Positions 1,929 to 24,981 of a stretch of DNA of 32,352 nucleotides are shown here, in pieces. The stretch spans positions 1 through 32,352 of the forward strand of contig JAJRRW010000065.1 in NCBI GenBank assembly GCA_024279115.1, written 5' to 3'. Both the position numbers and the translations under genes were made by a program. The notes under the pieces were generated by a model. The model worked only from the letters and a program-made list of their open reading frames with translations. It did not search any database and was not told the DNA's origin. Numbering within the stretch: position 1 is the stretch's first letter; each line of letters opens with the position of its first letter. This stretch comes from Alphaproteobacteria bacterium. GTDB lineage: Bacteria; Pseudomonadota; Alphaproteobacteria; Rhizobiales; JAKIUO01.

Positions 1929-2399
1929 TTAATCCGTGCGCGGGTCGACGCCGTATTTGTTGGGATCGTGAGGGCCATAAAATCCCAGCTCGATAAAGAA
2001 CCAGGTACCAACACCGCCAAGCCAGACGGCCAGCCAGTCATAACCCCACATGATATTGTCCATATATTCAGAGAGGGCCGGGACGAGGATCGTAGAGGAT
2101 TGAATGAGCGCAGGAGCCCAGAACAGTGCGGCGACCAGACCCGATTTGTTGCGATCATGCAAGCGCTGGGTGACAAGCGCCATAGCGGGAAAAAGCATGA
2201 ATAGATAGAGCAGCACTTCCTTCAGCCCCATATTCTGCCAGTTATTCAAGAGGGCTGTAAACGGGTCGCTGGAGAGGATGTCTGGTTGCAGTCCCACGGT
2301 GGCCATCGACCCGAAAATGAAAATGGTGATGATACCAGCCCAAAACCCCCGGCGACCAATACGACCGGAAAAGCTGTAAAAAGCGCGTATGGCATTCAT
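1929..2399 (-). CDS. DUF805 family inner-membrane protein (copy 1)
   Basis: The 156-residue protein has about four hydrophobic segments and the DUF805 hallmarks: an N-terminal FSGRIGRRGFW block before the first helix, a central QRLHDRNKSG block, and the C-terminal NKYGVDP tail. The family is widespread and has no established biochemical function. A Shine-Dalgarno AAGGGA lies 7 nt before the ATG. It is the most distal of four DUF805 genes in a row on this strand, 112 bp downstream of copy 2. Copies differ greatly outside the three hallmark blocks, so they are old paralogues, not a recent duplication. Confidence 0.88.
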   Translation of the reverse strand: MNAIRAFYSFSGRIGRRGFWAGIITIFIFGSMATVGLQPDILSSDPFTALLNNWQNMGLKEVLLYLFMLFPAMALVTQRLHDRNKSGLVAALFWAPALIQSSTILVPALSEYMDNIMWGYDWLAVWLGGVGTWFFIELGFYGPHDPNKYGVDPRTD

Positions 2400-2511
2400 G
2401 ACCGTTCCCTTCAGTTTCTAACTGTCGGGAACGTTATCAGATCAGGCTACAAGGGGCTACCGTGATGATTTTTTTGTTGATCAACTGGGAATAACTATGT
2501 GTGCTGATGGT

Positions 2512-2973
2512 TCAGGCAGCCGCTGTATTTGGAGAGGGGCCATAGCGATCGCCTTTTTCATGGGAGCGCAAAAACAGCATTTCAGTGAGCATCCATAAAA
2601 AGCCGACAAAGGCCATTGAAATGAGCGTGGTGTACACAACGACAGCCACTTCATAGGACTGCAGCGGGAAATATTTTTGCTGCAGGAGGAAGCCTGCTAT
2701 CACCGCGAGCGGCGAGAACAACACAAGCGACCAACCCGCCGAACGGCCATAATCATGCATGCGCTTGATCGACAGATTGGCGAGAAAATAGAGCGCCTCA
2801 ACGGCAATCAGTGCGGGGACGGCAATATTGGCCCAGGCAGGCAGAATACCGGTGAGAAACCGCAGGTAAAAGGTCAAAATACCGACAAGCAGCAAGACGG
2901 GTAAAAGGCCTAGAAGAAAGCTTTTGCGTGCAATACGGCCCTTGGTGCCAAGCAGCAGATGGATCCAGTTCAT
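2512..2973 (-). CDS. DUF805 family inner-membrane protein (copy 2)
   Basis: This 153-residue membrane protein has four hydrophobic segments. The hallmark blocks are the most degenerate of the four copies: KGRIARKSFLLG at the N-terminus, IKRMHDYGRSA in the centre (Tyr replaces the usual Arg after HD), and DRYGPSP near the end. A clear Shine-Dalgarno (GAGGA) precedes the ATG by a few bases. It sits 75 bp downstream of copy 3 in the same direction and is probably part of the same transcript. Function is unknown. Confidence 0.87.
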   Translation of the reverse strand: MNWIHLLLGTKGRIARKSFLLGLLPVLLLVGILTFYLRFLTGILPAWANIAVPALIAVEALYFLANLSIKRMHDYGRSAGWSLVLFSPLAVIAGFLLQQKYFPLQSYEVAVVVYTTLISMAFVGFLWMLTEMLFLRSHEKGDRYGPSPNTAAA

Positions 2974-3048
2974 GACGTCCTCACAAATCTACAATAGTTT
3001 GAGCATTGATCTTTGAGCTTGCCAGATTTATCGGCGTCATCCAATGGG

Positions 3049-3585
3049 TTAAATGGTCTCATCGTTTGGCGGGGTTAATGGGGCAAGCGGATCGGCGCCA
3101 TATTTGGTCGGTCCCGCGATGCCTTTGCGAAAGCCCAGTTCAAACACCAGCCAGACAATATAGACCATAAAGGCAATCATCAGGGAGATCCTGGCGAGCA
3201 GGAATACCGGAAAAACTGCGTGCAGTTCTTGTTCATCGGGCCAGACAAAAAGCGGGTTTGACCCTGTCGCGTCAAAAGCGATAAGCATCAGCAGTGTCAA
3301 ATAGAGAGGCACCAGCAGATAGGCCGATCGCCCCCGGTCATGGATGCGTTTGATGTCAATCGCCAGAGCGACGCGCAAGGTGAGCAAAAAGGCGATGATT
3401 TCCGCAAGCGCGGTTTGCGCGTTGGGGGGCTCATCATTCCAGTAGAAGGTCGGATCTTCCCCCATAAGCCATAAAAGAGCCATGGTCACGGATAGGGACG
3501 TCAACTCCACCGCGAGCATGCCCAGCCACCAGTACAAGCGGCTGATGCGCCCTGCAAAGCTGAAAAACAGGAACTTGGCGCTCAT
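3049..3585 (-). CDS. DUF805 family inner-membrane protein (copy 3)
   Basis: The 178-residue protein has the DUF805 blocks FAGRISRLYWW (N-terminal), KRIHDRGRSA (centre) and TKYGADP (near the C-terminus), with about four membrane helices between them. A loop of roughly 25 residues between helices one and two (around EDPTFYWNDEPPN) is acidic and probably exposed. Its ATG overlaps the stop of copy 4 as ATGA (3582-3585), so the two are likely translationally coupled and made in similar amounts. That would suit a hetero-oligomer, though this is inference. Confidence 0.88.
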   Translation of the reverse strand: MSAKFLFFSFAGRISRLYWWLGMLAVELTSLSVTMALLWLMGEDPTFYWNDEPPNAQTALAEIIAFLLTLRVALAIDIKRIHDRGRSAYLLVPLYLTLLMLIAFDATGSNPLFVWPDEQELHAVFPVFLLARISLMIAFMVYIVWLVFELGFRKGIAGPTKYGADPLAPLTPPNDETI

Positions 3586-4118
3586 GATTGTGTCTCAAGA
3601 TTATTGTGTGCCAAAGGGTCTGGGCCATATTTGTTAAGCCCTTTAGTGCTGCGCAAAAAGCCAAGTTCGATCAACATCCAAAGGGCGATAACAACGCTAA
3701 GAACAAACAGACCGAGCACAATATATAAGACGGACGAGGTAATAGCTGGAGATATGTCCCACTCAAGAAGGTAAGAGCGTGTCGACAGGATCATTTTGCT
3801 AAACATGTTCCCTTCGTCGACGGGAACGAGCAAAAACGCGAAGAAGAGCAGCGGCAGGATCCACCATTTGCGCCGTCCCCTGTCATGTAATCGCTTGCCG
3901 CTAATGGCAGCAGCGATATAGAAGCCGACGAACGCCCATATTATTGCTAGCCAGACTACCATTGGTGATGAAAAAGAAAACGGTAGATCAATAATATCCA
4001 GATGCACAAGGTCGTTGAGTGTGGCAGGTAGTAACAGCGGTCCCAGTGCGATCAGCATGCCAAACCAATATCTGCCTCTGCTAATGCGTCCATCGAAGCT
4101 GAAAAACAGTTTTGCCAT
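3582..4118 (-). CDS. DUF805 family inner-membrane protein (copy 4)
   Basis: The 178-residue protein starts at the ATG at 4118. An in-frame start 32 codons upstream is rejected because it would add a non-homologous leader overlapping the lipoprotein gene. The DUF805 blocks are FDGRISRGRYWFG right after the start, KRLHDRGRRKW in the centre and NKYGPDP near the end. Four to five hydrophobic helices are visible. A stretch of T9 upstream (A9 on the coding strand) sits next to a weak GGCG ribosome site. The gene lies 34 bp after the lipoprotein gene and overlaps copy 3 by 4 bp, making it the first DUF805 gene of the cluster. Confidence 0.88.
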   Translation of the reverse strand: MAKLFFSFDGRISRGRYWFGMLIALGPLLLPATLNDLVHLDIIDLPFSFSSPMVVWLAIIWAFVGFYIAAAISGKRLHDRGRRKWWILPLLFFAFLLVPVDEGNMFSKMILSTRSYLLEWDISPAITSSVLYIVLGLFVLSVVIALWMLIELGFLRSTKGLNKYGPDPLAHNNLETQS

Positions 4119-4152
4119 GGTGGCGCCTTTTTTTTTGTGGGGAGAGGACAAG

Positions 4153-4596
4153 CTATCCTGGGAACAGTCCGGTGCGCTTGCAATCTTTACGCAGGTCCAT
4201 GAGGTCTCGGCCATCGGTCACGCGTACATACATGCCCTTGTGCTGGCCCTTTGGATATTGGGCTCTGACCAGCCATGTAATGGGGGTCTTTCCAAAAAGC
4301 GTTTTGCGATGCAAATCCATTACAGCACAAAGCTCAATACGCACATGGCCGTCTTTGGTGACCACTTTGCGATGGCGCCCGCGTAGATAGGTGGCATTGC
4401 CAAAGCCGATGCCCTTGCGCACTTCTGTTTCCAGCTCCTTTTTTTCTGCCGCAGACAGTTGGTAGGAGCTTTGGCTCTTGATATTGCCGGGCTCGACAAA
4501 ATAAGTGCCAAGCAGCCCGCCGCCTCCCTGACCAGCGCCACAGCCAGTCAGAACAAAAGCTGTTGCAATCAGTAAAAGCAGATGTTTTCTTGTCAC
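4153..4596 (-). CDS. Small predicted lipoprotein of unknown function
   Basis: The 147-residue protein opens with a lipoprotein signal: basic TRKH, a hydrophobic stretch and the lipobox LTGC. Lipidation is therefore predicted at the Cys about 19 residues in, followed by a Gly-rich linker. The GTG at 4596 is chosen as start because an excellent Shine-Dalgarno (AAGGAGAG) lies just before it. Longer in-frame starts would translate a palindromic intergenic repeat. The mature part is basic, with two conserved-looking Cys residues (ELCAVMD and RKDCKRTG), which could form a disulfide outside the cytoplasm. It is the first gene of the run that continues into four DUF805 membrane proteins. I recognise no family. 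Confidence 0.75.
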   Translation of the reverse strand: MTRKHLLLLIATAFVLTGCGAGQGGGGLLGTYFVEPGNIKSQSSYQLSAAEKKELETEVRKGIGFGNATYLRGRHRKVVTKDGHVRIELCAVMDLHRKTLFGKTPITWLVRAQYPKGQHKGMYVRVTDGRDLMDLRKDCKRTGLFPG

Positions 4597-7980: not shown

Positions 7981-9186
7981 CTATGCCCGCTCCAATATGA
8001 TGGCAATGCCTTGCCCGACACCAATACACATGGTGCACAGGGCATAGCGACCCCTGATGCGTTGCAGCTGATAGCTGGCGGTGGTGATGAGGCGGGCGCC
8101 GCTCATGCCAAGCGGATGGCCAAGGGCAATCGCCCCGCCATTGGCATTGACATGGGCAGCGTCATCGTCCAGCCCCAGATCGCGCATCACGGCCAGCGCC
8201 TGTGCGGCAAAGGCTTCGTTCAATTCGATCACATCCATATCGTCAAGGGTCAGCCCCGCAAGTTTCAAGGCCTTGCGCGTGGCAGGCACTGGTCCCATAC
8301 CCATAAGACGAGGCTCCACGCCGACACAGGCCATGGTGACAATGCGGGCAAGGGGCGTCAGGCCGTTTTGTTCGGCGGCTTTGTTTGAGGCGATAAGCAA
8401 GGCGCAGGCCCCGTCATTGATACCAGAGGCATTGCCAGCGGTAATGGTGCCGCCTTTACGAAACGGGGCTTTGAGTTGCGCCAGTTTGGCAAGGGTGGTG
8501 TCAGGGCGGGGATAGTCGTCGCGATCGAATATGAGCGCAGCGCCCGTGCGCTGGGCGATGGTCACAGGATGGATTTCCTCTGCCAACAAATCAGCTTTTT
8601 GAGCCGCTGCTACACGGGCTTGCGAACGGGCGGCAAAGGCGTCTTGATCCTGGCGTGAAATATTGAAATCCTGGACAATATTCTCGGCTGTTTCGGGCAT
8701 GGTCTCAACGCCATACTGCTCTTTCATCTGCGGATTGACAAAGCGCCAGCCCATGGTGGTGTCATGGATCTCAACGGCACGGCTAAAAGCCTGCGCGGCT
8801 TTGGGCATGACAAAGGGAGCGCGGGACATGCTCTCGACGCCCCCTGCAATGATCAGTTCGGCTTCGTTGCTTTTGATGGCGCGGGCGGCAGATCCCACCG
8901 CATCCATGCCAGAGCCGCACAAACGATTGAGGGTGACACCTGGTATACTCCCCGGCAGCCCGGCCAGCAGCAAGGACATGCGTGCCACATTGCGATTATC
9001 TTCGCCAGCCTGATTGGCACAGCCATAGATCACATCATCAAGTTGCTGCCAGTCAACTGTGGGATTGCGTTCCCTCAGGGCTTTCAGGGGCAGGGCGCCC
9101 AGATCGTCAGTGCGGATGGACGATAATGAGCCGCCATAGCGCCCGATGGGAGTGCGGACGCCATCACAGATAAAAGCGTCAGTCAT
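7981..9186 (-). CDS. pcaF: 3-oxoadipyl-CoA thiolase type acetyl-CoA acyltransferase
   Basis: This 401-residue thiolase (the usual PcaF length) splits a beta-ketoacyl-CoA with CoA; the archetype cuts 3-oxoadipyl-CoA to succinyl-CoA and acetyl-CoA. The catalytic residues are present: Cys90 ([14 protein letters not shown]), His357 ([10 protein letters not shown]) and Cys387 ([10 protein letters not shown]). PcaF-like signatures include [13 protein letters not shown] and ELNEAFAAQ. The ATG at 9186 overlaps the stop of the aminotransferase gene as ATGA. It is the last gene of a five-gene unit beginning with the KamA-like gene. No ring-cleavage genes are in the window, so the 3-oxoadipate, or another beta-keto acid, may come from the beta-amino acid steps of the same operon. 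Family assignment is strong; exact acyl specificity is inferred. Confidence 0.9.
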
Positions 9187-10517
9187 GGCTTGGTCTCCAC
9201 TAGCATTGGCTTGATGGTTAAAAGGCATGTGTGCAAGGTCTCGCACAACTGGTCGATGTGCGCTTGTCCCATGGGGGTGGAAAGCGCCATGGCCCCGGTG
9301 TGGATCATCATGATGCCGTGCGCGTAAAGCTGTTCGATGAGGGCTTCCAGAACCCTTGTCTCGAGCGGTGACAAATGCGCCTCGCGATAATTACGCGGGG
9401 CCTGCGCCTTGAGATGCAGGCGCAGCAAAGAACCAGCTCCTGTGACACTGGCCGGGACATCGGCCAGCTCGATTGCTTGCGCCACGCCTTGGCGCGCGAT
9501 ATCACCCAGAGCGTTCAGCCTCTTTACCGCTTGCTCATCAAAATGCTGCATGGCCACCAGCCCGGCGGTCATGGTCACAGGATTGGCGGAAAAAGTGCCC
9601 GAATGAGGCAGGCGCACCCCTTGATCACTATTAGTGAAGACCTGCATCACCTCGCGCCGACCGGCCAGCGCGCCAACGGGAAAGCCGCCGCCGATCATTT
9701 TTCCCATGCAGGTCAGATCAGGCAGTATATCAAAACGCGCCTGCATGCCGCCAAACTCACTGCGAAAGGTGATGACCTCATCAAACATCAACAGGGTATT
9801 ATTGGCCCGTGCCCAATTGGCCAGGGCGTTTACAAATTGCCATTGCACGGGCACCATGCCGACCCGGTGGGGAATAGGGTCAATGAGGATACAAGCGATC
9901 TGCCCGGCGTGCTGATCAAGAATGGTGATGGCATTTTCGGGGTCGTTAAATGGCAGAATAACCATATCATTGGTCACGCCCTGGGGGGTGCCCTGGGCCA
10001 GTGCCACCGGATTGGGGTGATCAGCGGCGCCCCAGTTTTGCGGCGTTGGTGCCTGCGAAACTTCGGCATAATCATAGGCACCGTGGTAACAGCCCTCGAC
10101 CTTGGCGATGCGGGGGCGACCCGTAAAGGCACGCGCCGCTTTCATGCCGGCCATCACCGCTTCGGTGCCCGAATTGACAAAGCGGATTTGCTCAAAGCTT
10201 TTTGAACGCGCGCATAAATGTTCGGCGAACTGCACCTCCCCCTCGCTGGCCATGGTGAAGGCGGTGCCTTTTGGCAATTGCCTGGTGACCGCTTCAATGA
10301 GGGGGGGGACAGCGTGACCATGAATGTGGGAGGCCATATTATTGGCAAAATCCAGGCGCTCAACCCCGTCCACATCGGCGACCACACATCCCTTGCCATG
10401 GTTTACATAAAGCGGATGGCCTGCTCGCAATAGCGTATTACGACTGACGCCGCCGGGCATCACACGCTTGGCCCGCTCGAACAGCACGGCGCTTTTGGGG
10501 CTGTTTCGATCACTCAT
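9183..10517 (-). CDS. Class III PLP aminotransferase, beta-amino acid / GSA aminomutase-like
   Basis: The 444-residue fold-type I PLP enzyme looks like glutamate-1-semialdehyde aminomutase but with an altered active site. The PLP lysine is Lys273 (MGKMIGGGFPVGA), the ring-nitrogen Asp is Asp246 (LLMFDEVITF), and SGTFSANP completes the cofactor site. Near the N-terminus it reads PGGVSRNTLL, where GSA aminomutases have PGGVNSPVR. The PGGxSR form is what I recall from beta-phenylalanine-type aminotransferases, whose Arg binds the substrate carboxylate. Together with FVNSGTEAVMAGMKAARAF this favours transamination of a beta-amino acid over haem synthesis. The start at 10517 lies within the end of pcaJ (ATGAGTGA, 8-bp overlap); the end overlaps pcaF by 4 bp. 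Context predicts beta-amino acid to beta-keto acid. Confidence 0.85.
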   Translation of the reverse strand: MSDRNSPKSAVLFERAKRVMPGGVSRNTLLRAGHPLYVNHGKGCVVADVDGVERLDFANNMASHIHGHAVPPLIEAVTRQLPKGTAFTMASEGEVQFAEHLCARSKSFEQIRFVNSGTEAVMAGMKAARAFTGRPRIAKVEGCYHGAYDYAEVSQAPTPQNWGAADHPNPVALAQGTPQGVTNDMVILPFNDPENAITILDQHAGQIACILIDPIPHRVGMVPVQWQFVNALANWARANNTLLMFDEVITFRSEFGGMQARFDILPDLTCMGKMIGGGFPVGALAGRREVMQVFTNSDQGVRLPHSGTFSANPVTMTAGLVAMQHFDEQAVKRLNALGDIARQGVAQAIELADVPASVTGAGSLLRLHLKAQAPRNYREAHLSPLETRVLEALIEQLYAHGIMMIHTGAMALSTPMGQAHIDQLCETLHTCLLTIKPMLVETKP

Positions 10518-11184
10518 TGTCTTGGTCCGGTTTTGCTGGCAACAAGGGCGCATCGGTGCGCTCCGCCACCTCTTCAAAGGTGATGCCGGGGGCCAGCTGT
10601 TGCAGTTGAAAGCCCGAAGCAGTGATATTGATGATCGCCAGATTGCTATAGATCCTTGTCACCACCTTTGGCCCGGTGAGGGGATAGGAGCATTGCTCGA
10701 CCAGTTTGGCTTCCCCGTTTTTTGTGGTGTGCTGGGTGAGAACGAAAATGGTTTTGACCCCGGCGGTCAAGTCCATGGCCCCGCCAACAGCGGGGATGGC
10801 GTCTGGCGCACCGGTGGACCAATTGGCCAGATCGCCTCGTTGCGAGACCTGCATGGCCCCCAACACGCACACGTCGATATGGCCGCCGCGGATCATCGCG
10901 AAGCTGTCGCCATGATGAAAGAAGCTGGCACCTGGATTGGCGGTCACTGGTTTCTTGCCCGCATTGATCAGCTCGGGATCTTTCTCGCCAGGCGCTGGCG
11001 CTGGTCCCATGCCCAGCAGGCCGTTTCCGCTATGATAGATAAATTCGCGGCCCTTTGGCACATATCTGGCCACAAGTTCGGGAATACCAATGCCCAGATT
11101 GACAATGGATTGATCGGCAATATCGCCCGCACAAAGTTGCGCCATCTGCTCGCGGTTCCAGCCTGTTAGTTGCGCTTTGCTCAT
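10510..11184 (-). CDS. pcaJ: 3-oxoacid (3-oxoadipate-type) CoA-transferase subunit B, catalytic Glu replaced
   Basis: The 224-residue B subunit of a family I CoA-transferase moves CoA from succinyl-CoA to a 3-oxo acid. It matches PcaJ closely (GMGPAPAPG, NAGKKPVT, FHHGDSFAMIRGGH, QVSQRGDLANW). The family's active-site motif is S-E-N-G, whose Glu forms the acyl-CoA thioester. Here residues 51-54 read HSGN, so position 53 is Gly (codon GGA, 11026-11028) instead of Glu (GAA). If real, the enzyme should be badly impaired or work differently; a one-base error or mutation is the alternative. The ATG at 11184 overlaps the stop of subunit A as ATGA and is preferred to an upstream GTG. It belongs to the KamA-like/CoA-transferase/aminotransferase/thiolase operon. 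Confidence 0.88.
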   Translation of the reverse strand: MSKAQLTGWNREQMAQLCAGDIADQSIVNLGIGIPELVARYVPKGREFIYHSGNGLLGMGPAPAPGEKDPELINAGKKPVTANPGASFFHHGDSFAMIRGGHIDVCVLGAMQVSQRGDLANWSTGAPDAIPAVGGAMDLTAGVKTIFVLTQHTTKNGEAKLVEQCSYPLTGPKVVTRIYSNLAIINITASGFQLQQLAPGITFEEVAERTDAPLLPAKPDQDNE

Positions 11185-11891
11185 GGATAGCACCTGCCCC
11201 TGGCGATCAATTCGGCGTCAATCAGCGGCTCTTGCACCTCGACGATTTGGTCAACAAAGATATTGGGCGTGATGACCTGCTCTGGATCAAGCGCCCCAAT
11301 GGCAACCACCTTCCTTGCTTGCACAATGGTTGTGGTTGCCGCCGTGCACATCAGCGGATTGAAATTGCGCGCCGTTTTATTGTAAATGAGATTGCCCGAG
11401 CGATCGGCCTGCTCGCATTTGATCAGCGCGACATCAGCCTTTAAAGCATATTCCAGTACATAGTCGCGCCCCTTGATGGTGCGCACTTCCTTGCCCTTTG
11501 CCAGTACGGTGCCAACCGTTGTTGCGGTGTAAAAGGCGGCGATACCCGCCCCACCAGCGCGGATGCGTTCGGCCAGCGTGCCTTGGGGCACAAGTTCCAG
11601 CTCTATTTCGCCCGCCCGGTAAAGTTTTGGAAACACTTTGGAATGGCTGGAGCGCGGATAGGGACAGATCATTTTCGCGACCTGGTGATTGCCGATCAGC
11701 GCAGCCAGTCCAATCTCGCCATTGCCGGTATTATTATTGATAATGGTGAGATCTCTGGCCCCTTGATCGATCAGGGCATGAATGAGTTCGGTGGGGCTGC
11801 CAGCCTCTCCAAAGCCGCCGATCATCACGGTGGCACCATCGCAAATATCGGCGACGGCCAGCTCGGTTGAAGACACTTGTTTATTCATCAT
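11181..11891 (-). CDS. pcaI: 3-oxoacid (3-oxoadipate-type) CoA-transferase subunit A
   Basis: The 236-residue A subunit has the CoA-binding glycine loop (MIGGFGEAGSP, about residues 21-31) and PcaI-like blocks: LTIINNNTGNGEIGLAAL, ELELVPQGTLAERIRAGGAG, and KTARNFNPLMCTAA near the end. It pairs with the B subunit encoded next (4-bp overlap ATGA), and the two form the functional transferase. Two consecutive ATGs begin the gene; AGAGG lies upstream. It follows the KamA-like gene by only 56 bp, so the five genes are probably one transcript. AtoD/ScoA-type substrates (acetoacetate) remain possible, but the blocks look closer to PcaI. Confidence 0.9.
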   Translation of the reverse strand: MMNKQVSSTELAVADICDGATVMIGGFGEAGSPTELIHALIDQGARDLTIINNNTGNGEIGLAALIGNHQVAKMICPYPRSSHSKVFPKLYRAGEIELELVPQGTLAERIRAGGAGIAAFYTATTVGTVLAKGKEVRTIKGRDYVLEYALKADVALIKCEQADRSGNLIYNKTARNFNPLMCTAATTTIVQARKVVAIGALDPEQVITPNIFVDQIVEVQEPLIDAELIARGRCYP

Positions 11892-11947
11892 CGCGCCATG
11901 CCTCTGGTCTCCAAGTCTCGATGTCTTTGGTCTCTAGGTGTGAGTGT

Positions 11948-13369
11948 TTATTTCGCTGCGGCCAGCTTGATGCCGTACATGGAAAATAGCTCGGCTTCAT
12001 CATAGATCACCCGGTCATCATAACCGCTGAACCAGATGGCCTGCGGGTTGCGGCCAACGATGGTGACTTTGCAACGGTCCACGGCATCGGCTGCCGAGCG
12101 CAGCAGCTTGAAGATGACGACGCCGTTTTCACCGCCTCGCACCCCGTTCATGGGATCATTGGTGACAGCGGCGACTTCGGTTTTGCCCTTGTAATGGGTG
12201 ATCGACAAACGCGCATGGGTTTCCACTCCCGACAGGCCCTTCTGGCTCTCATTGAGAATTTTCCAGGCCTCTTCGATTGGCACATTGAAGGCCTTGTGGC
12301 CGACAATATCGCGACCGCAAAAGAAGTAATGGTTCTCGATGCCGTGGCGTTTTAGTTCGCGCTGCATGATGCGCAGAGCATCGGCATCATCATTGATGCC
12401 TTTGATAATCGGGGCCTGATTGTCAATATTGATCCAGTTGCGGGCCGCCAATTGCCTGACCGCCGCCAGGGTGCTGTCGATCCATTGCAGCCCCCCTTGT
12501 GGATGATCCACATAGGCACCGTCGGGCATTTTCTTTAAAAATTCGTCCGGGTGATTGAAGTGAACCATCATGCGCAGATTGACCTGCGGATAGGTGATAT
12601 GGAACTGGTCGAGCATGGCCATGAAAGAGTCATCAAAACGGGCGGGAAAAAAGGCCAGCTCCTTGGTGCCGATGCGAATGGACTCGATGCCAGCCTCGGC
12701 CAGCGCCCCAAGCCATTGCGCAAGGTTCTTGTTGCCAAGCACCAAAGGGTCGCCCCCCGACATTAATATCTCGCGCAGACGCTCGCGGCCGGTCTGCGGG
12801 TGACGACCGTTATTTTGAGCCACCAACCGGTTATGCTCAACAATATAGGCGGTGATCTCGCTAATTTGCGCAAGCCCCTTGGGGGCAAAACTGCCATCGG
12901 CTCGTTCAATGTCTTTTTTGGCGATCAGCTCTTCGCGGTAACAGAACCGGCAATGGGCCGAACAGGTCGAGGCCACATAAATAAGGCCAAGCTCATATTT
13001 GTGAATGAGCCCCTCAACCGGACTATAGGTCAGTTGTTTGCCAGGGTCCTGCGCCCCGTCCAGATCAAAGGTTTCATTGGGCGTTGCCTTGATCAAGGTT
13101 TGCATGGCCGGGCTGGATTGAGCCTGCTCAAAATAATGGCGGGTGATTTTCACGGGCATGCGGGCCTGGATATCGCGCTCCGTGCCGTCCAGTTCGGTAA
13201 TGGCTTGCAGCTCGCTGGGGGAATAAAAATCCTGCATATCCTGAGGGACGGTGCCATCGATGAATTTCTTCAGTCCAGTGATGATCTGGCGATCATATTT
13301 GGCGTTTTCGACCTGCTCCAGAAAGGCGCGTTCGCGATCAGAGGGGATATGTTTTGCAGCCTTGGCCAT
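11948..13369 (-). CDS. KamA-family radical SAM, PLP-dependent aminomutase of unknown substrate
   Basis: The 473-residue protein belongs to the lysine 2,3-aminomutase family, which moves an amino group from C2 to C3 using SAM, a [4Fe-4S] cluster and PLP. The cluster ligands are C136-x3-C140-x2-C143 (CSAHCRFC). Family blocks are SGGDPL (204-209), ESIRIGTKE (229-237), MVHFNHPDE (268-276) and NQAPIIKGIND (317-327). It departs from characterised KamA in two ways: the PGGGGK motif holding the PLP lysine is absent (THYKGKTEV at 391-399 lies there; Lys394 or Lys396 could serve), and the two Asp that bind the epsilon-ammonium of lysine seem to be replaced. The substrate may therefore not be lysine. 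The start is ATG 13369 with GAGGAAA just upstream. It is the first gene of the operon that continues with CoA-transferase, beta-aminotransferase and thiolase. EpmB is unlikely given the length and the context. Confidence 0.85.
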   Translation of the reverse strand: MAKAAKHIPSDRERAFLEQVENAKYDRQIITGLKKFIDGTVPQDMQDFYSPSELQAITELDGTERDIQARMPVKITRHYFEQAQSSPAMQTLIKATPNETFDLDGAQDPGKQLTYSPVEGLIHKYELGLIYVASTCSAHCRFCYREELIAKKDIERADGSFAPKGLAQISEITAYIVEHNRLVAQNNGRHPQTGRERLREILMSGGDPLVLGNKNLAQWLGALAEAGIESIRIGTKELAFFPARFDDSFMAMLDQFHITYPQVNLRMMVHFNHPDEFLKKMPDGAYVDHPQGGLQWIDSTLAAVRQLAARNWINIDNQAPIIKGINDDADALRIMQRELKRHGIENHYFFCGRDIVGHKAFNVPIEEAWKILNESQKGLSGVETHARLSITHYKGKTEVAAVTNDPMNGVRGGENGVVIFKLLRSAADAVDRCKVTIVGRNPQAIWFSGYDDRVIYDEAELFSMYGIKLAAAK

Positions 13370-20028: not shown

Positions 20029-21045
20029 CTAATGATCAGCGGTGAGACCGGCATCGGCAATGAGCTGCATATCGGCATTGGTCTGGGTATTGTCGGTGGT
20101 TAGCAGGCGCTCGCCATAAAAGATCGAATTGGCGCCGGCCATCAGGCAGAACATCTGGATTTCGCGTGACATATTATGTCGCCCGGCCGACAGGCGCACA
20201 TCAGAAGTTGGCAGTACGATGCGCGCTGTTGCGATCATGCGGACGATTTCCATAGGATCAATCGGCTCCACATCGCCAAGCGGTGTACCCTCGATGGGTA
20301 CCAGCGCATTGATCGGTACGCTTTGCGGGTGAGGGGACATTTCGGCCAGTATTTGCAGCATGCGGGCGCGATCATGCATGGTTTCTCCCATGCCGACAAT
20401 GCCGCCGCTACACACTGAAATGCCAGCGTCTCGCACCTCGCTCAACGTGTCGAGACGATCTTGATAGCTGCGCGTGGTGATGACCTCGCTATAAAACTCG
20501 GGAGAGGTATCCAGATTATGATTATAATAGTCGAGCCCCGCCTCCGCCAGGCGGGCGGCCTGATCGCTTGTTACCATGCCAAGGGTGACACAGGCATCCA
20601 TTTCGAGCTTTTTGACGCCCCGCACCATATCAAGCACCGCCTCGAAATCTTGCCCTTCCTTGATCTCGCGCCAGGCGGCCCCCATGCAAAATCTTGAGGC
20701 TCCCGCCTCTTTTGCCTCGCGGGCTTTTTCAAGCACCAGATCGACATCCATCAAAGGTTCATATTTGAGGCCGGTTTTCTTGGCGTGATAGGCCGATTGC
20801 GAGCAATATTTGCAATCCTCCTTGCAGCCGCCGGTTTTGATGCTGAGCAGGCTCGATAGCTGCACCTTGCCGCCGGGGTGATAGGCGCGATGCACTGTCT
20901 GGGCGCGATAGATAAGGTCGATGAGCGGCGAGCGCATGATCTCTTCTATCTCGCTGGCGCTCCAGTTCGTGCGGTGCTCATTGATTTTTGTATCGACACT
21001 AATTTCGTTCACATCAGGCTCCGAATATGTTTTAGCTAGGGGCAT
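20029..21045 (-). CDS. bioB: Biotin synthase
   Basis: BioB inserts sulfur into dethiobiotin, the last step of biotin synthesis, using SAM and two Fe-S clusters. The radical SAM ligands are C74-x3-C78-x2-C81 ([15 protein letters not shown]). Other family blocks are [33 protein letters not shown] and the late [12 protein letters not shown], whose Arg binds the [2Fe-2S] cluster. From the ATG at 21045 (AGGA 8 nt upstream) it has 338 residues. A GTG at 21012 with GGAG exactly 6 nt upstream is an equally good start and would give 327 residues, since the leader is not conserved. The ATG at 21045 overlaps the bioF ATG on the other strand, so little room is left for a promoter. It is a single-gene unit. 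Confidence 0.96.
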
Positions 21046-21046
21046 G
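21012..21046. promoter_or_regulatory. Back-to-back start sites of bioB and bioF
   Basis: The palindrome GCATGC (21042-21047) gives an ATG to both strands: bioF from 21044 rightward and bioB from 21045 leftward. The bioB alternative GTG (21012) leaves just 31 bp between coding regions. Ribosome-site candidates are AGGGG one base before the bioF ATG and GGAG before the bioB GTG. Promoters must therefore lie inside the opposite gene. I found no perfect BioR box (TTATMKATAA) or BirA-like operator here. Confidence 0.5.
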
Positions 21047-22210
21047 CATAAGGTCCTAGCATATACCAACTATCTGGAAAGCCAAAAAAAGGATGAGTTA
21101 TTTCGTAAACTCAGTTCTTGCCGCCATCCAGACGCGCGCACAATCCTCATAAAGGGGCGTGAATACCTTAATTTCTCCAGTAATGACTATCTGGGCTTAA
21201 GTCAGCATCCCCTTGTCAAGGAACGCGCCAGCGCCGCTGCAACGCTTTATGGGGCCGGCAATGGAGCCTCAAGGCTGGTGAGCGGCAATCATTGCCAATT
21301 TGATGAGATCGAACGCAAACTGGCCCTTTTAAAGGACAAACCGGCGGCGCTTTTGTTCGCCAGCGGTTTTCAGGCCAATGCCAGCATCTTGCACGCCTTG
21401 TTTGATAAAAAAATTCTCAAGGCAGAGCCGTTGGTTTTTAGCGACCGGCTGAACCATGCCAGCATGCATTTTGGCTGTCGCGCGGCTGGCGTTCGGCAAA
21501 TTCGCTATCGTCATCTGGATTATGACCATCTTGGCCAATTACTGGCAAAATATGTGAACAGCGATCAGCCCAAATTCCTCCTCACGGAGAGCGTTTTCAG
21601 CATGGATGGCGATGTGGCTGATCTGCCAAGGCTTGGGGAGCTTGCAAAGCAGCATAGTGCTTTGCTCATTTGCGATGATGCCCATGCCACGGGGATTTTG
21701 GGAGCTGCGGGGGCGGGTTTGTGCGGTCCTGCTGATGTGACCATTGGCACTTTTTCCAAAGCCCTTGGCGGGTTCGGGGCATTTGTGGCGGGATCGCAAT
21801 TAATGCGCGATTATCTGATCAATCGCTGCGCCGGGTTTATCTATTCCACGGCGCCCCCCCCCAGCGTGCTTGGGGCGATGGATGCGGCGCTTGATCTGTT
21901 GCCGCAGCTGCAAGGCGAGCGCGCACATGTGGCGCAACTGGCGCAAAGCTTTCGCGATGAGCTGGGGGCGCGCGGGCTTGATTTTGGTGGATCGACCACG
22001 CAGATTGTACCGGTCATTCTGGGATCGGCTGAACGGGTGGTTAAAATCAGCGATGAGCTGCGCCAGGCGGGCCTGTGGGCGAGCGCCATTCGTCCGCCAA
22101 CCGTGCCCTCAGGGGCGGCCAGACTGCGCATTACGTTTAACGCGGCGCACCGGGAAAGTGATCTCGAACGGCTGGTTCTGGCTCTTGGTAAAGCGGTTAA
22201 GTACATATGA
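21044..22210 (+). CDS. bioF: 8-amino-7-oxononanoate synthase
   Basis: BioF condenses pimeloyl-ACP (or -CoA) with L-alanine, the first step of ring assembly. The 388-residue alpha-oxoamine synthase has [16 protein letters not shown] (about 41-56), the glycine-rich [19 protein letters not shown] (211-217) and the PLP lysine Lys239 in [13 protein letters not shown]. The ATG at 21044 is the last start before the conserved N-terminal helix; a start 41 codons upstream would run through bioB. It overlaps the next gene as ATGA (22207-22210), so bioF, the esterase and bioC form one coupled unit. Confidence 0.95.
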
Positions 22211-22836
22211 GCGCCCCCCTTGTGTTTATTCATGGCTGGGGATTTAATGGCTCGATGTGGCATGAAATATCCGCCCATTTGCCGCGCCGCAATTCTTTGA
22301 GGCTGGAACTTGGATATGTTGGATCCCCGATCGCCAGCCCGCCCGAAATTCCAGATAATGCGATCATTGTCGCTCACTCGCTGGGGGTGCTGTGGGCCTT
22401 GAAACATTTGCCGATCAATCCCGCTGGCTTTATCAGCGTCTGTGGGTTTGATCAATTTTCACCGCCGGTGCGACGCGCCGACCTGTTGATTATGAAGCGA
22501 GGCTTGAACAAAAACCCGATGGCCCAGATGATGCATTTTTGGCGCTCATGCGGGAGCGAGCCGTTTGCCAAAGCCAATCAGCTTAATCAATCAGCCTTGA
22601 TCGAGGGACTGCACGGGCTTATGAACTGGGATGGTCGCAAGGAGCGACAAAAACTGCCGTGCCCAATGCAAATATTGGCGTCCAGAGATGATCAGATCGT
22701 CTCAAAACAGATGAGCTGTGATATGTGGGGCGAAGAGAGCATTGTCTGGTCGAAAAGCGGGGGACATGCCTTGCCTCTTACACGCCCCAAATGGTGCGCC
22801 GATCAGATCAAAACATTTGTGAAGAACCATGAATAA
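22207..22836 (+). CDS. Alpha/beta hydrolase, putative pimeloyl-ACP methyl ester esterase
   Basis: The 209-residue alpha/beta hydrolase has the oxyanion region FIHGWGFNGSMW, nucleophile Ser58 (AHSLG), a likely acid Asp161 (ASRDDQ) and His187 (SGGHALP). It lies between bioF and bioC with overlaps on both sides. That is where an enzyme freeing pimeloyl-ACP from its methyl ester (the job of BioH in E. coli, BioG and others elsewhere) is expected. The length is close to BioG (about 210) and shorter than BioH (about 256), but the opening 'HGWG' resembles BioH. It may be one of the less-studied esterase variants. Function is inferred from position and triad. Confidence 0.8.
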   Translation: MSAPLVFIHGWGFNGSMWHEISAHLPRRNSLRLELGYVGSPIASPPEIPDNAIIVAHSLGVLWALKHLPINPAGFISVCGFDQFSPPVRRADLLIMKRGLNKNPMAQMMHFWRSCGSEPFAKANQLNQSALIEGLHGLMNWDGRKERQKLPCPMQILASRDDQIVSKQMSCDMWGEESIVWSKSGGHALPLTRPKWCADQIKTFVKNHE

Positions 22837-23577
22837 AAGCGACTTTCATAAAAGCGACTTTCATAAACGCGGCGTGGTGGAGCGTTTCAGCCAGAATGCG
22901 TTGGGCTATGAGCAACATGCCCGGCTGCAAAAGCTGGTGGCGGCGCGTCTGGCTGGCTTTTTTCCAAACAAGCAGTACGCAGATATTTTGGAAATCGGCT
23001 GCGGCACCGGTTTTTTGACGGAGCATTTGCTGGCCAGCTACCGGGGCGCTCATTTCGAGATCACCGATCTGTCGCGCACCATGCTTGAGCAGTGCGCAGA
23101 TAAATTTCCCGGCCATCAAAAGCTGCGGTTCAGCTTGCTGGATGGAGAGCGCGTGGGGCAAGACAAGCGCTATGATCTTATCGCGACCAGCATGACCGTT
23201 CAATGGTTTGCGCAGCCCGCTCAAAGCCTTGACAGTTGCGCGGTCTTTTAAAGCCCGGCGGTCGTTTGCTGTATTCGACTATTGGTGCTGATCTGTTTCC
23301 GCAATGGCGCGCCGTGTTGAGGGAGCGGGGGCTTCCTTGTGGTCTTGTGTCGATGGGAGAGTTGCCGGGGGTGATGGAAGAAGAAACCCACCAAATGCGC
23401 TTTGCCAATGGGGTGCAGTTTTTGCAAAACCTGAAATCGACCGGCGCTTCAACGCCGCGCCGCGACTATGGCGGTCTGACTGCTGGCCAATTGCGTGGTG
23501 CCATTCGCGCCTTTGAAACCAAGAAGCAAGCGGTTGCCGACTGGCACATTCTTTATGGCCGTTTGAACGCTATTTAA
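22829..23577 (+). pseudogene. bioC: Malonyl-ACP O-methyltransferase, one-base frameshift
   Basis: BioC methylates malonyl-ACP to start pimelate synthesis. The SAM-binding motif LEIGCGTG (54-61) and the QWFAQPAQSLD block are in frame from the ATG at 22829. After Asp135 (23231-23233) the frame runs into TAA. The other half (QLRGLLKPGGRLLYSTIGAD onward to 23577) continues in another frame. One extra C after 23233 (GAC-CAG in place of GACAG) joins both into a normal 249-residue BioC. Everything else is conserved. A real frameshift would block de novo pimelate synthesis, so an error in the sequence or a very recent loss is likely. The start overlaps the esterase gene by 8 bp. Confidence 0.85.
22833..22862 (+). 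repeat. Tandem 15-bp duplication at the bioC N-terminus
   Basis: ATAAAAGCGACTTTC occurs twice head to tail (22833-22847, 22848-22862). The duplication is in frame and doubles the peptide KSDFH at residues 3-12 of BioC. It also covers the stop codon of the preceding esterase gene. It looks like a recent slippage event. Confidence 0.9.
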
Positions 23578-23602
23578 TTCATATCACTGGTTTGAGCAAA
23601 AA

Positions 23603-23628
23603 AGCTTCCCCGGCTTGCCCCGGGAGCT
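23603..23628. repeat. Short palindrome between converging bioC and bioA
   Basis: AGCTTCCC and GGGAGCT-like arms (with one G-T pair) enclose CGGCTTGCCCC. The right part, CGGCTTGCCCCGGGAGC, resembles the outer arm of the element at 6472-6612 (AGGCTTGTCCGGGGAGC), so it may be a single REP unit. It could also act as a weak terminator for both converging units. Confidence 0.4.
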
Positions 23629-23652
23629 GAATATTGGCACGAAAACACACGC

Positions 23653-24981
23653 TTATTTCCGGTTTAATTGCCCAAGGCCCTGGAGCATACCATCATAGGC
23701 GGTGTCGATTTGCTCATCCGTGATGCAATAAGGCGGCATCAGATAGACGGTTTTGCCATAGGGGCGGATATTGAGGCCGTGTTGCAGATACCAGTCACGC
23801 AGGAAAATGCTTTCACTGCTTTTATAGCCAACGGCCCCATCGACAAGATTAAAGGCCAGAATGGTTCCCAGAACCCGCGCTTTTTCCACCAGAGGATGGG
23901 CCTGTAATGTCGGCAATAGCTCATTGTGTCTTTGTTCGATCACGGCAATGCGCTCAAAACTGTTTTCTTCTTCAAACAGCTCAAGAGACTTGAGGGCCAC
24001 CGCGCAGGCCAGAGGATTGGCGGCGTAGGAGTGACCATGGGCAAGCGCCTTGTTAAAGGTCTCGCCCTCAAATTCCTTGAAAAAATCTTCGCGCACAACG
24101 GTCATGGAAAGCGCCATATATCCAGCCGTGAGGCCCTTTGACAGGCAGACAATATCCGGGGCGACATCGCATTGCTGGAAGGCAAACATGGTGCCGGTGC
24201 GGCCAAACCCCGTTGCCACCTCGTCAAAAATAACCACGATGCCACGCTCTTGCGCCATCAAGACAATGCGGCGCAAGAAAGTGGGGGTGCAAAAACGCAT
24301 GCCAGCGGCGCCTTGCATCAAGGGTTCAAGAATAAGAGCGGCCACTTCATCGCCCTGCTGGTCGAGTATTTGCTGGAAGGCTTTGATGGCTTGTTGTTCT
24401 TTGTGCTCGCGCAGCTCATCGCCTGGAAAAGTTGCGGCAAAGGGAATGGTTCTGGCCTCGCACATCAAACCCTCAAACAGCTTGAAGAAGCCAGAGCCGC
24501 GCGATACCGCCATCGCCCCCATGGTATCGCCGTGATAATCACCGTCAAATGACAGAAAAATCCGCCGCTTGTGTTGGCCCTTGTTGCGGCAATATTGATA
24601 GGCCATTTTCAGCGCCACCTCATTGGCGGTGGAGCCATTGTCGGAATAAAAAACCCGCGACAGGCCTTGGCCGAGTTGTTGGGTGATCTGTTGCGCGAGA
24701 TCGACAGCGGCGGCATGGGTAAAGCCTGCGAACATCACATGTTCAAGCTGCCCCGCCTGATCGCAAAGAGCCTTGTTGATGGCGGGGTGGGCATGGCCAT
24801 GAATACAAGTCCACCAGGAGGAAATCAGATCAAGGATCTCATGTCCCTCGGCATCAAACAAAGAGGTGCCGCTGGCCCGCACAATGGCCACGGGGTCTTT
24901 TTCGGTGCCGTGCTGGGTATAGGGATGCCAGACATGCAGCGCATCGCGGTCGATCAGGCCCTGTTTATCATGGTTTTTCAA
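23653..24981 (-). CDS. bioA: Adenosylmethionine-8-amino-7-oxononanoate aminotransferase
   Basis: BioA converts 8-amino-7-oxononanoate to 7,8-diaminononanoate with SAM as amino donor. The 442-residue class III aminotransferase has HVWHPYTQH near the start, LISSWWTCIHGHAHP, YSDNGSTANEVALKMA (112-127), Asp253 (IFDEVATGFGRTG) and PLP Lys282 (LSKGLTAGYMALS). The Trp-Trp and Tyr residues lining the product pocket are present. The start appears to be TTG at 24981: it is the only start before the conserved N-terminus, with AAGGCG about 10 nt upstream. It follows bioD by 14 bp in the same transcript. It ends convergent with bioC. Confidence 0.95.
   Translation of the reverse strand: MKNHDKQGLIDRDALHVWHPYTQHGTEKDPVAIVRASGTSLFDAEGHEILDLISSWWTCIHGHAHPAINKALCDQAGQLEHVMFAGFTHAAAVDLAQQITQQLGQGLSRVFYSDNGSTANEVALKMAYQYCRNKGQHKRRIFLSFDGDYHGDTMGAMAVSRGSGFFKLFEGLMCEARTIPFAATFPGDELREHKEQQAIKAFQQILDQQGDEVAALILEPLMQGAAGMRFCTPTFLRRIVLMAQERGIVVIFDEVATGFGRTGTMFAFQQCDVAPDIVCLSKGLTAGYMALSMTVVREDFFKEFEGETFNKALAHGHSYAANPLACAVALKSLELFEEENSFERIAVIEQRHNELLPTLQAHPLVEKARVLGTILAFNLVDGAVGYKSSESIFLRDWYLQHGLNIRPYGKTVYLMPPYCITDEQIDTAYDGMLQGLGQLNRK

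Follow-up and report, generated by a model that had tools for sequence, protein, structure and literature searches.

We describe here a five-gene operon encoded on the minus strand of a 32,352-nucleotide stretch of DNA (contig JAJRRW010000065.1, positions 1 to 32,352; hereafter the window) from an alphaproteobacterium (assembly GCA_024279115.1) whose genome comprises 2.83 Mb in 145 contigs. The operon probably encodes the second half of a so far undescribed pathway of lysine degradation, in which L-2-aminoadipate would be carried into the end-steps of the beta-ketoadipate pathway. With slightly less assurance, we consider it likely that a lysine catabolism of this kind, passing via 3-aminoadipate to the same end-steps and headed by an undescribed 2-aminoadipate 2,3-aminomutase, is widely scattered among bacteria. 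The features concerned, in operon order, are as follows.

11948..13369, minus strand: KamA-like aminomutase of the radical S-adenosylmethionine (SAM) and pyridoxal phosphate (PLP) type, 473 aa, predicted 2-aminoadipate 2,3-aminomutase (distant KamA match, model fold, conserved residues)
11181..11891, minus strand: 3-oxoacid CoA-transferase subunit A, PcaI/ScoA subfamily, 236 aa (TIGR02429, 344.4 bits, cut-off 128.5)
10510..11184, minus strand: 3-oxoacid CoA-transferase subunit B, PcaJ/ScoB subfamily, 224 aa, with SGNG replacing S/T-ENG (TIGR02428, 285.3 bits, cut-off 243.55)
11026..11028, minus strand: codon for Gly53 of CoA-transferase B, at the position of the family's catalytic Glu
9183..10517, minus strand: class III aminotransferase, 444 aa, predicted 3-aminoadipate (beta-) transaminase (PF00202, solved relatives, PGGVSR)
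7981..9186, minus strand: 3-oxoadipyl-CoA thiolase of the PcaF type, 401 aa (TIGR02430 equivalog, active-site motifs)

The coordinates confirmed the layout reported in an earlier note on this DNA, with all five genes on one strand, a gap of 56 bp after the first gene and then overlaps of 4, 8 and 4 bp; the starts of CoA-transferase B, the aminotransferase and the thiolase are later ATG codons chosen inside the listed frames. When compared with two members of the same genus, the ratio of non-synonymous to synonymous substitution rates (dN/dS) was 0.07-0.15 for all five genes, and this purifying selection indicates that they are not a chance set of frames.

In the proposed route, the KamA-like enzyme, equipped with a [4Fe-4S] cluster, SAM and PLP, would convert L-2-aminoadipate to 3-aminoadipate by shifting its C2 amino group to C3, with Arg353 holding the side-chain carboxylate where lysine 2,3-aminomutase uses an Asp. 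The PGGxSR class III aminotransferase would then produce 3-oxoadipate, which the PcaIJ/ScoAB-type CoA-transferase would activate to 3-oxoadipyl-CoA, and the PcaF thiolase would cleave this to succinyl-CoA and acetyl-CoA. A neighbouring lysine-dehydrogenase-like gene and a dehydrogenase for L-piperidine-6-carboxylate (P6C; 2-aminoadipate semialdehyde) would, in some relatives, make 2-aminoadipate from lysine. Every substrate and the order of the reactions are predicted from gene content, enzyme families, conserved synteny, the fold match of a model and a residue swap. Each enzyme family fits the step assigned to it, and the enzymes of 3-oxoadipate metabolism are members of the thiolase and CoA-transferase families concerned. 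The evidence supports this interpretation for the gene family as a whole, while the window organism's own route is a prediction.

The KamA-like protein had no match in Pfam and stayed below the cut-off of every named KamA model that it matched: TIGR00238 (KamA family, 104 bits against 199), TIGR03821 (EpmB, 94.8 against 369.3), TIGR04368 (glutamate 2,3-aminomutase, 88 against 650), TIGR04468 (arginine 2,3-aminomutase, 87.7 against 600), an AblA-like model (81 against 396) and TIGR03820 (lysine 2,3-aminomutase equivalog, 76.7 against 525.4). It is thus a subfamily of its own. An AlphaFold model of the protein (mean predicted local distance difference test score, pLDDT, 83.2; predicted TM-score, pTM, 0.85) gave lysine 2,3-aminomutase 2a5h as its top fold match (Z 29.5 over 322 residues, root-mean-square deviation 4.5), with the next entry at Z 12.5, and a Foldseek comparison of the two returned an E-value of 3.6e-15. 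The model therefore places the protein within the lysine 2,3-aminomutase fold at the superfamily level. The KamA-family label attached to it by the earlier note is accordingly sound for fold and motifs, but the protein is too divergent to carry that label by family score.

Residues were counted over 83 sequences, comprising that of the window, those of the 81 loci surveyed below and one divergent relative. The CxxxCxxC motif at 136-143 (Cys136, Cys140 and Cys143) was present in all 83, as were Arg145 and Lys396, which by reading of the alignments are equivalent to the substrate-carboxylate arginine and the PLP lysine; their counterparts in lysine 2,3-aminomutase are Arg134 and Lys337. The two aspartates that bind the substrate lysine in the clostridial enzyme are Asp293 and Asp330. 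The column of the former, after the YQC strand, was occupied by Arg353 in 83/83 sequences, and that of the latter fell on Ser389 or Thr391 according to loop placement, each being Ser/Thr in 82/83 and neither acidic. The side-chain-binding Asp residues of lysine 2,3-aminomutase are thus absent, and Arg with Ser/Thr is found instead of the Lys and Asn that glutamate 2,3-aminomutase has at the two Asp positions. In the first alignments with 2a5h, the segment bearing the Asp/Arg column was the third and a weak one (i-Evalue 8.5 and 40); a profile comparison with lysine-aminomutase-like sequences was therefore run, and the same columns were aligned at a probability of 99.7; the comparison proteins came from 16 matches scoring 403-441 bits, themselves under the TIGR03820 cut-off. 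The Structure-Function Linkage Database paper (PMC3965090) states that the aspartates bind lysine and ties the Lys and Asn of glutamate 2,3-aminomutase to the binding of glutamate. Since an Arg stands in place of a lysine-binding Asp, an acidic substrate is favoured, and the position of Arg353 in the alignments argues for an acidic group on the substrate side chain. Conversely, lysine and acyl-lysine, which the earlier note had kept as alternatives, lose ground because the lysine-binding Asp residues have gone.

More divergent KamA-like proteins occur at L029, L031 and G660:C5:55681-57030. The L029 protein (526 aa, 39% identical) retains the Arg, and L031 showed no pathway partner within its 18 kb (tblastn, E <= 1e-5). 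Proteins of the L029/L031 type form a second branch.

Both CoA-transferase subunits passed the cut-offs of their PcaIJ/ScoAB models, and the identification made in the earlier note stands. The Glu of the S/T-ENG motif is the catalytic residue of the subunit B family. The motif was found in 34/35 homologues, the 35th (L062) being a fragment without the motif region, and is intact in the two genus members and in the solved relatives, but the subunit B of the window reads SGNG, with Gly53 replacing the Glu, and thus lacks this residue. Gly53 may stem from an erroneous base in the assembly, or the Glu may truly have been lost, and the CoA-transferase of the window genome may be impaired or misassembled.

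The aminotransferase matched PF00202, and its best solved relatives were 6k8h and ForI (6ssd), followed by glutamate-1-semialdehyde (GSA) aminomutases and beta-transaminases. Its motif reads PGGVSR, as the earlier note had seen, and PGGxSR was present in 51/53 homologues. In the alignments, 6k8h carries PGGNTR and ForI PGGNSR, and the GSA aminomutase 2epj has no Arg there. Named beta-transaminases share this Arg, which binds the carboxylate. The family and the Arg of a PGGxxR motif are those of a class III beta-transaminase, and activity on beta-amino acids is predicted on this basis. The thiolase scored 696.6 bits on the PcaF equivalog TIGR02430 (cut-off 597), which bears out its designation as PcaF-type, and contains the active-site motifs CGSG (at 90), GHP and CIGVG.

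The neighbourhoods of aminomutase genes were surveyed by scanning one genome per species. Of the 418 relatives obtained, the survey used the best 80 (67-89% identity), so that the counts cover the closest part of the family. These 80 belong mostly to Alpha- and Gammaproteobacteria, but also include ten metagenome-assembled genomes (MAGs) that bear Planctomycetota labels and one each labelled Chloroflexi, Gemmatimonadetes and Flavobacteriaceae, although the taxon labels of MAGs may reflect binning errors. Cultured bearers of the gene include Zongyanglinia marina DSW4-44, Cucumibacter marinus DSM 18995 and Sneathiella chungangensis KCTC 32476. A further copy lies on a Mesorhizobium plasmid, where it is annotated 'hypothetical protein', and among viral contigs a single match of 25% was the only one to the aminomutase. 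Three loci (L032, L033 and L037) are from the window's genus. Neighbour genes were called simply as longest open reading frames and checked by tblastn with score thresholds of our own, and at least 5 kb of downstream sequence was available for 50/81 loci, the other 31 being excluded from the counts per 50.

Within 6 kb and on either strand, an aminotransferase was found in 37/50 loci, CoA-transferase A in 22/50, CoA-transferase B in 22/50, a ferredoxin in 19/50, a PcaF-like thiolase in 13/50, P6C dehydrogenase in 12/50 and a lysine-dehydrogenase-like gene in 6/50. Aminotransferase, both CoA-transferase subunits and thiolase were all on the same strand in 12/50, including L032 and L037. The earlier note had proposed to abandon the pathway if the aminomutase proved not to be conserved with the other four genes, and these counts do not bear out such a lack of conservation, though 12/50 loci have no partner at all. 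A LysR gene was present on the opposite strand within 6 kb in 48/81 loci, directly upstream and divergent in 42 of them. In Mesorhizobium, a CoA-transferase pair from a different branch of the CoA_trans family, which we believe resembles CatIJ, occupies the same place, and therefore the activity seems to have been kept while the gene was exchanged.

Some loci have other surroundings. The aminomutase of L048 (2492-8394) adjoins genes resembling those of coenzyme F420 biosynthesis; Pfam assigns radical SAM and CofH/MqnC C-terminal domains to one neighbour, and the others were judged by eye. The Mesorhizobium plasmid copy (L030, 1-8875) lies 5 kb after BREX defence genes. The neighbours in L106 (an aminotransferase, an acyl-CoA dehydrogenase and a diaminopimelate decarboxylase) passed no lysine-degradation equivalog and do not count as support.

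The link to lysine comes from genes near the aminomutase. P6C dehydrogenase, in each case an aldehyde dehydrogenase of the same cluster, was found within 6 kb in 13/81 loci, where about 0.4 would be expected from position alone if relatedness is ignored. All six that were scanned (L045, L051, L052, L056, L094 and L108) passed the NF050084 equivalog with 765-811 bits (cut-off 730), and the other seven coincide in position, by comparison of coordinates by hand, with matches over the cut-off in the genome search. The closest PDB entries to the L051 protein are 6dbb, Pcd and human 2-aminoadipic semialdehyde dehydrogenase. The order, position and strand of the gene vary among loci, which argues against a single inherited neighbourhood. 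At the level of whole genomes, the search covered 50 loci, picked by eye for long contigs from the 77 that lie outside the genus, together with G000-G003 of the genus, G000 being the window genome. P6C dehydrogenase exceeded the cut-off in 36/50 aminomutase-bearing genomes outside the genus compared with 65/289 of the class (Fisher p 2e-11, relatedness ignored and the baseline not taxonomically matched to the aminomutase-bearing sample).

Saccharopine/lysine-dehydrogenase-like genes were present in 8/81 loci; they matched no NCBIfam lysine or saccharopine equivalog, and their putative identity as lysine dehydrogenases rests on Pfam saccharopine dehydrogenase domains and on PH1688 (3abi) as the best match in the PDB. 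L056 carries what is predicted to be the whole lysine-to-succinyl-CoA set: a divergent LysR gene is followed on one strand by kamA, ferredoxin, aminotransferase, CoA-transferase A and B and PcaF, and the other strand holds the lysine-dehydrogenase-like gene and P6C dehydrogenase, then an Lrp/AsnC regulator. L052 has a row of lysine-dehydrogenase-like gene, HglS (2-oxoadipate dioxygenase/decarboxylase, 547.9 bits), P6C dehydrogenase, kamA, ferredoxin and aminotransferase. In L051, P6C dehydrogenase and a lysine-dehydrogenase-like gene are followed by an amino-acid ABC (ATP-binding cassette) transporter, for whose binding protein the best model was lysine/arginine/ornithine (214.5 bits, under the cut-off of 256.35). 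Other sources of 2-aminoadipate semialdehyde were sought, and neither LodA (0/27 genomes) nor lysine 6-aminotransferase (0/16 at E <= 1e-60) was found. Together, the Arg swap, the P6C dehydrogenase and other lysine-linked neighbours and the PcaF equivalog thiolase support the sequence from 2-aminoadipate through 3-aminoadipate and 3-oxoadipate to succinyl-CoA and acetyl-CoA that the earlier note had put forward as an attractive option.

Several observations weigh against this interpretation. The assignment of the Asp330 column, to Ser389 or to Thr391, is uncertain, and an acidic substrate could also be glutamate. No partner lay within 6 kb in 12/50 well-flanked loci when ferredoxin and LysR were not counted; these are L048, L064, L065, L068, L072, L083, L089, L091, L093, L096, L105 and L109, six of them titled Colwellia. 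P6C dehydrogenase over the cut-off was missing from 14/50 aminomutase-bearing genomes outside the genus and, conversely, only 1/67 P6C-dehydrogenase genomes of the class had an aminomutase match at E <= 1e-60. HglS did not discriminate, being present in 5/36 aminomutase-bearing and 7/38 other P6C-dehydrogenase genomes. To these must be added the Gly53 of the window's CoA-transferase B and the gene content of the window's own genus, in which P6C dehydrogenase (0/4 genomes at E <= 1e-100), the saccharopine/lysine-dehydrogenase C-terminal domain (0/5), lysine 6-aminotransferase (0/5 at E <= 1e-60) and LodA (0/5) were not found. These enzymes thus do not account for the supply of 2-aminoadipate in the genus, for which uptake or an unrecognised aldehyde dehydrogenase are candidate sources.

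These last observations raise the possibility, which we hold doubtful, that the operon is decaying or its sequence faulty here, so that the route lies idle in this genome without the catalytic Glu and the upstream genes; this would be compatible with an aminoadipate route for the family. The isolated SGNG and the missing P6C and lysine dehydrogenases speak for it, and a base error is possible in sequence assembled into as many as 145 contigs. However, all five frames are open, and the low dN/dS was obtained against two genus members with the intact motif. A different substrate is unlikely in the form of glutamate, by which a divergent glutamate 2,3-aminomutase would produce beta-glutamate. Transamination of this to 3-oxoglutarate would be followed by activation and by cleavage to malonyl-CoA and acetyl-CoA; alternatively, beta-glutamate would serve as an osmolyte that the remaining enzymes salvage. 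Glutamate 2,3-aminomutase also has a basic residue at one Asp position, according to PMC3965090, several aminomutase bearers are marine by name or title, and TIGR04368 is among the weak matches. Nevertheless, that match falls short of its cut-off (88 bits of 650), the residues found are unlike Lys and Asn, the recurrent P6C dehydrogenase neighbour would have no role, and the thiolase passes the PcaF equivalog.

A beta-lysine route of the Barker or Bacillus yod type seems quite improbable. Here beta-lysine would be made, or N6-acetyl-lysine used, and the product would pass through transaminase, CoA-transferase and thiolase steps to give 4-aminobutyryl- or acetamidobutyryl-CoA. The enzyme classes are the same (aminomutase, class III aminotransferase, CoA-transferase and thiolase) and lysine-linked genes are near in some loci, but the Arg would repel a side-chain ammonium, the lysine-binding Asp residues are missing, and TIGR03820 gave 76.7 bits against 525.4. 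Moreover, P6C dehydrogenase has no step in such a route because its lysine substrate has already lost the side-chain amine. Given the residue swap and the lack of an acetyltransferase or deacetylase among the five genes, beta-lysine and acyl-lysine were rejected as substrates. Very improbable indeed is that the CoA-transferase and thiolase form an ordinary 3-oxoadipate module for aromatic compounds, with the aminomutase and transaminase as unrelated passengers. The PcaIJ/PcaF classification would suit it. Searches for intradiol dioxygenase, as for LodA and the saccharopine/lysine-dehydrogenase domain, covered 27 genomes (22 of the 50 above and G000-G004); intradiol dioxygenase (PF00775, E <= 1e-10) was present in 11/27, including G003 of the window's genus. 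In contrast, none was found in 16/27, including the window genome G000, and an ortho-cleavage source of 3-oxoadipate is therefore unlikely in those; an ordinary aromatic pca cluster was rejected for the window on this ground. The pairing of aminomutase with aminotransferase is also steadier than that with thiolase (37 against 13 of 50), and no further pca or cat gene occurred among the 23 window proteins scanned, some frames having been left unscanned. The aminoadipate route thus remains our preferred interpretation.

Elsewhere in the window, four adjoining DUF805 genes (156, 153, 178 and 210 aa; 1929-4214, minus strand) appear to be a run of diverged paralogues. Biotin-related genes lie on mixed strands at 20029-24981, namely a radical SAM protein with a BATS domain (20029-21069, minus), a BioF-like gene (20921-22210, plus; 416 bits, just below the cut-off of 426) and BioA (23653-24981, minus). 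At 29518-32061 (minus), an 847 aa protein contains a region resembling PknB Ser/Thr kinases, with a score below the model cut-off.

If the proposed route is correct, it would provide a path for lysine that avoids 2-oxoadipate and yields succinyl-CoA and acetyl-CoA at its end, and a biological route from lysine to 3-aminoadipate and 3-oxoadipate. It would also assign a substrate to a KamA subfamily outside all named models, account for the presence of pcaIJ/pcaF-like genes where a genome has no intradiol ring-cleavage dioxygenase, and mean that a single residue swap can predict substrate charge in KamA-type radical enzymes. Judged by titles and the beginnings of abstracts, none of the papers listed in searches of the open-licence PMC papers (a scope outside which subscription papers and preprints fall) describes it. 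The terms '3-aminoadipate' and 'beta-aminoadipate' did not occur in that literature; 3- or beta-aminoadipic acid appeared in two papers, one on a meteorite and the other reviewing precursors derived from lysine. Lysine catabolism combined with aminoadipate and radical SAM returned nothing from the same papers, and lysine, aminomutase and beta-ketoadipate jointly led to a single paper, on beta-phenylalanine transamination (PMC6150868).

Among known systems, lysine 2,3-aminomutase (KamA/AblA, 2a5h) shares with the window enzyme the model fold (Z 29.5), CxxxCxxC, GGD, the PLP lysine and the carboxylate arginine. The window enzyme differs in its identity of about 20%, in the Arg that replaces the lysine-binding Asp, and in falling below every named KamA cut-off. 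Glutamate 2,3-aminomutase is alike in that a basic residue replaces one lysine-binding Asp (PMC3965090). In contrast to its Lys and Asn, however, the window family has Arg and Ser/Thr, with the distance from TIGR04368 noted above. The Bacillus subtilis yodTSRQP-kamA cluster and Barker's N6-acetyl-beta-lysine route likewise bring together genes for an aminomutase, a class III aminotransferase and a CoA-transferase. The window operon differs from them in having no acetyltransferase or deacetylase, in the added PcaF thiolase and in its predicted substrate. For Bacillus KamA, PMC6522883 states that the physiological function remains undetermined. In the Cloacamonas Kat/HemL-like variant of lysine fermentation, a HemL-like class III beta-transaminase is tied to the kamA pathway together with CoA-transferase and thiolase, but acts on 3-aminobutyryl-CoA, after beta-lysine 5,6-aminomutase (PMC3149608). 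Its kamD/E, kdd and kce are absent from the five genes of the window.

Known 2-aminoadipate routes have in common with the proposed one the conversion of lysine to 2-aminoadipate and the P6C dehydrogenase. Beyond that point, 2-aminoadipate is taken via 2-oxoadipate to 2-hydroxyglutarate by HglS and, in mammals, to glutaryl-CoA, as described in PMC7286885. Thus, while the known routes remove the alpha amino group, the proposed route would shift it to C3 and exit via the beta-ketoadipate end-steps; its parts are of known kinds, and their combination and the predicted first reaction appear to be new.

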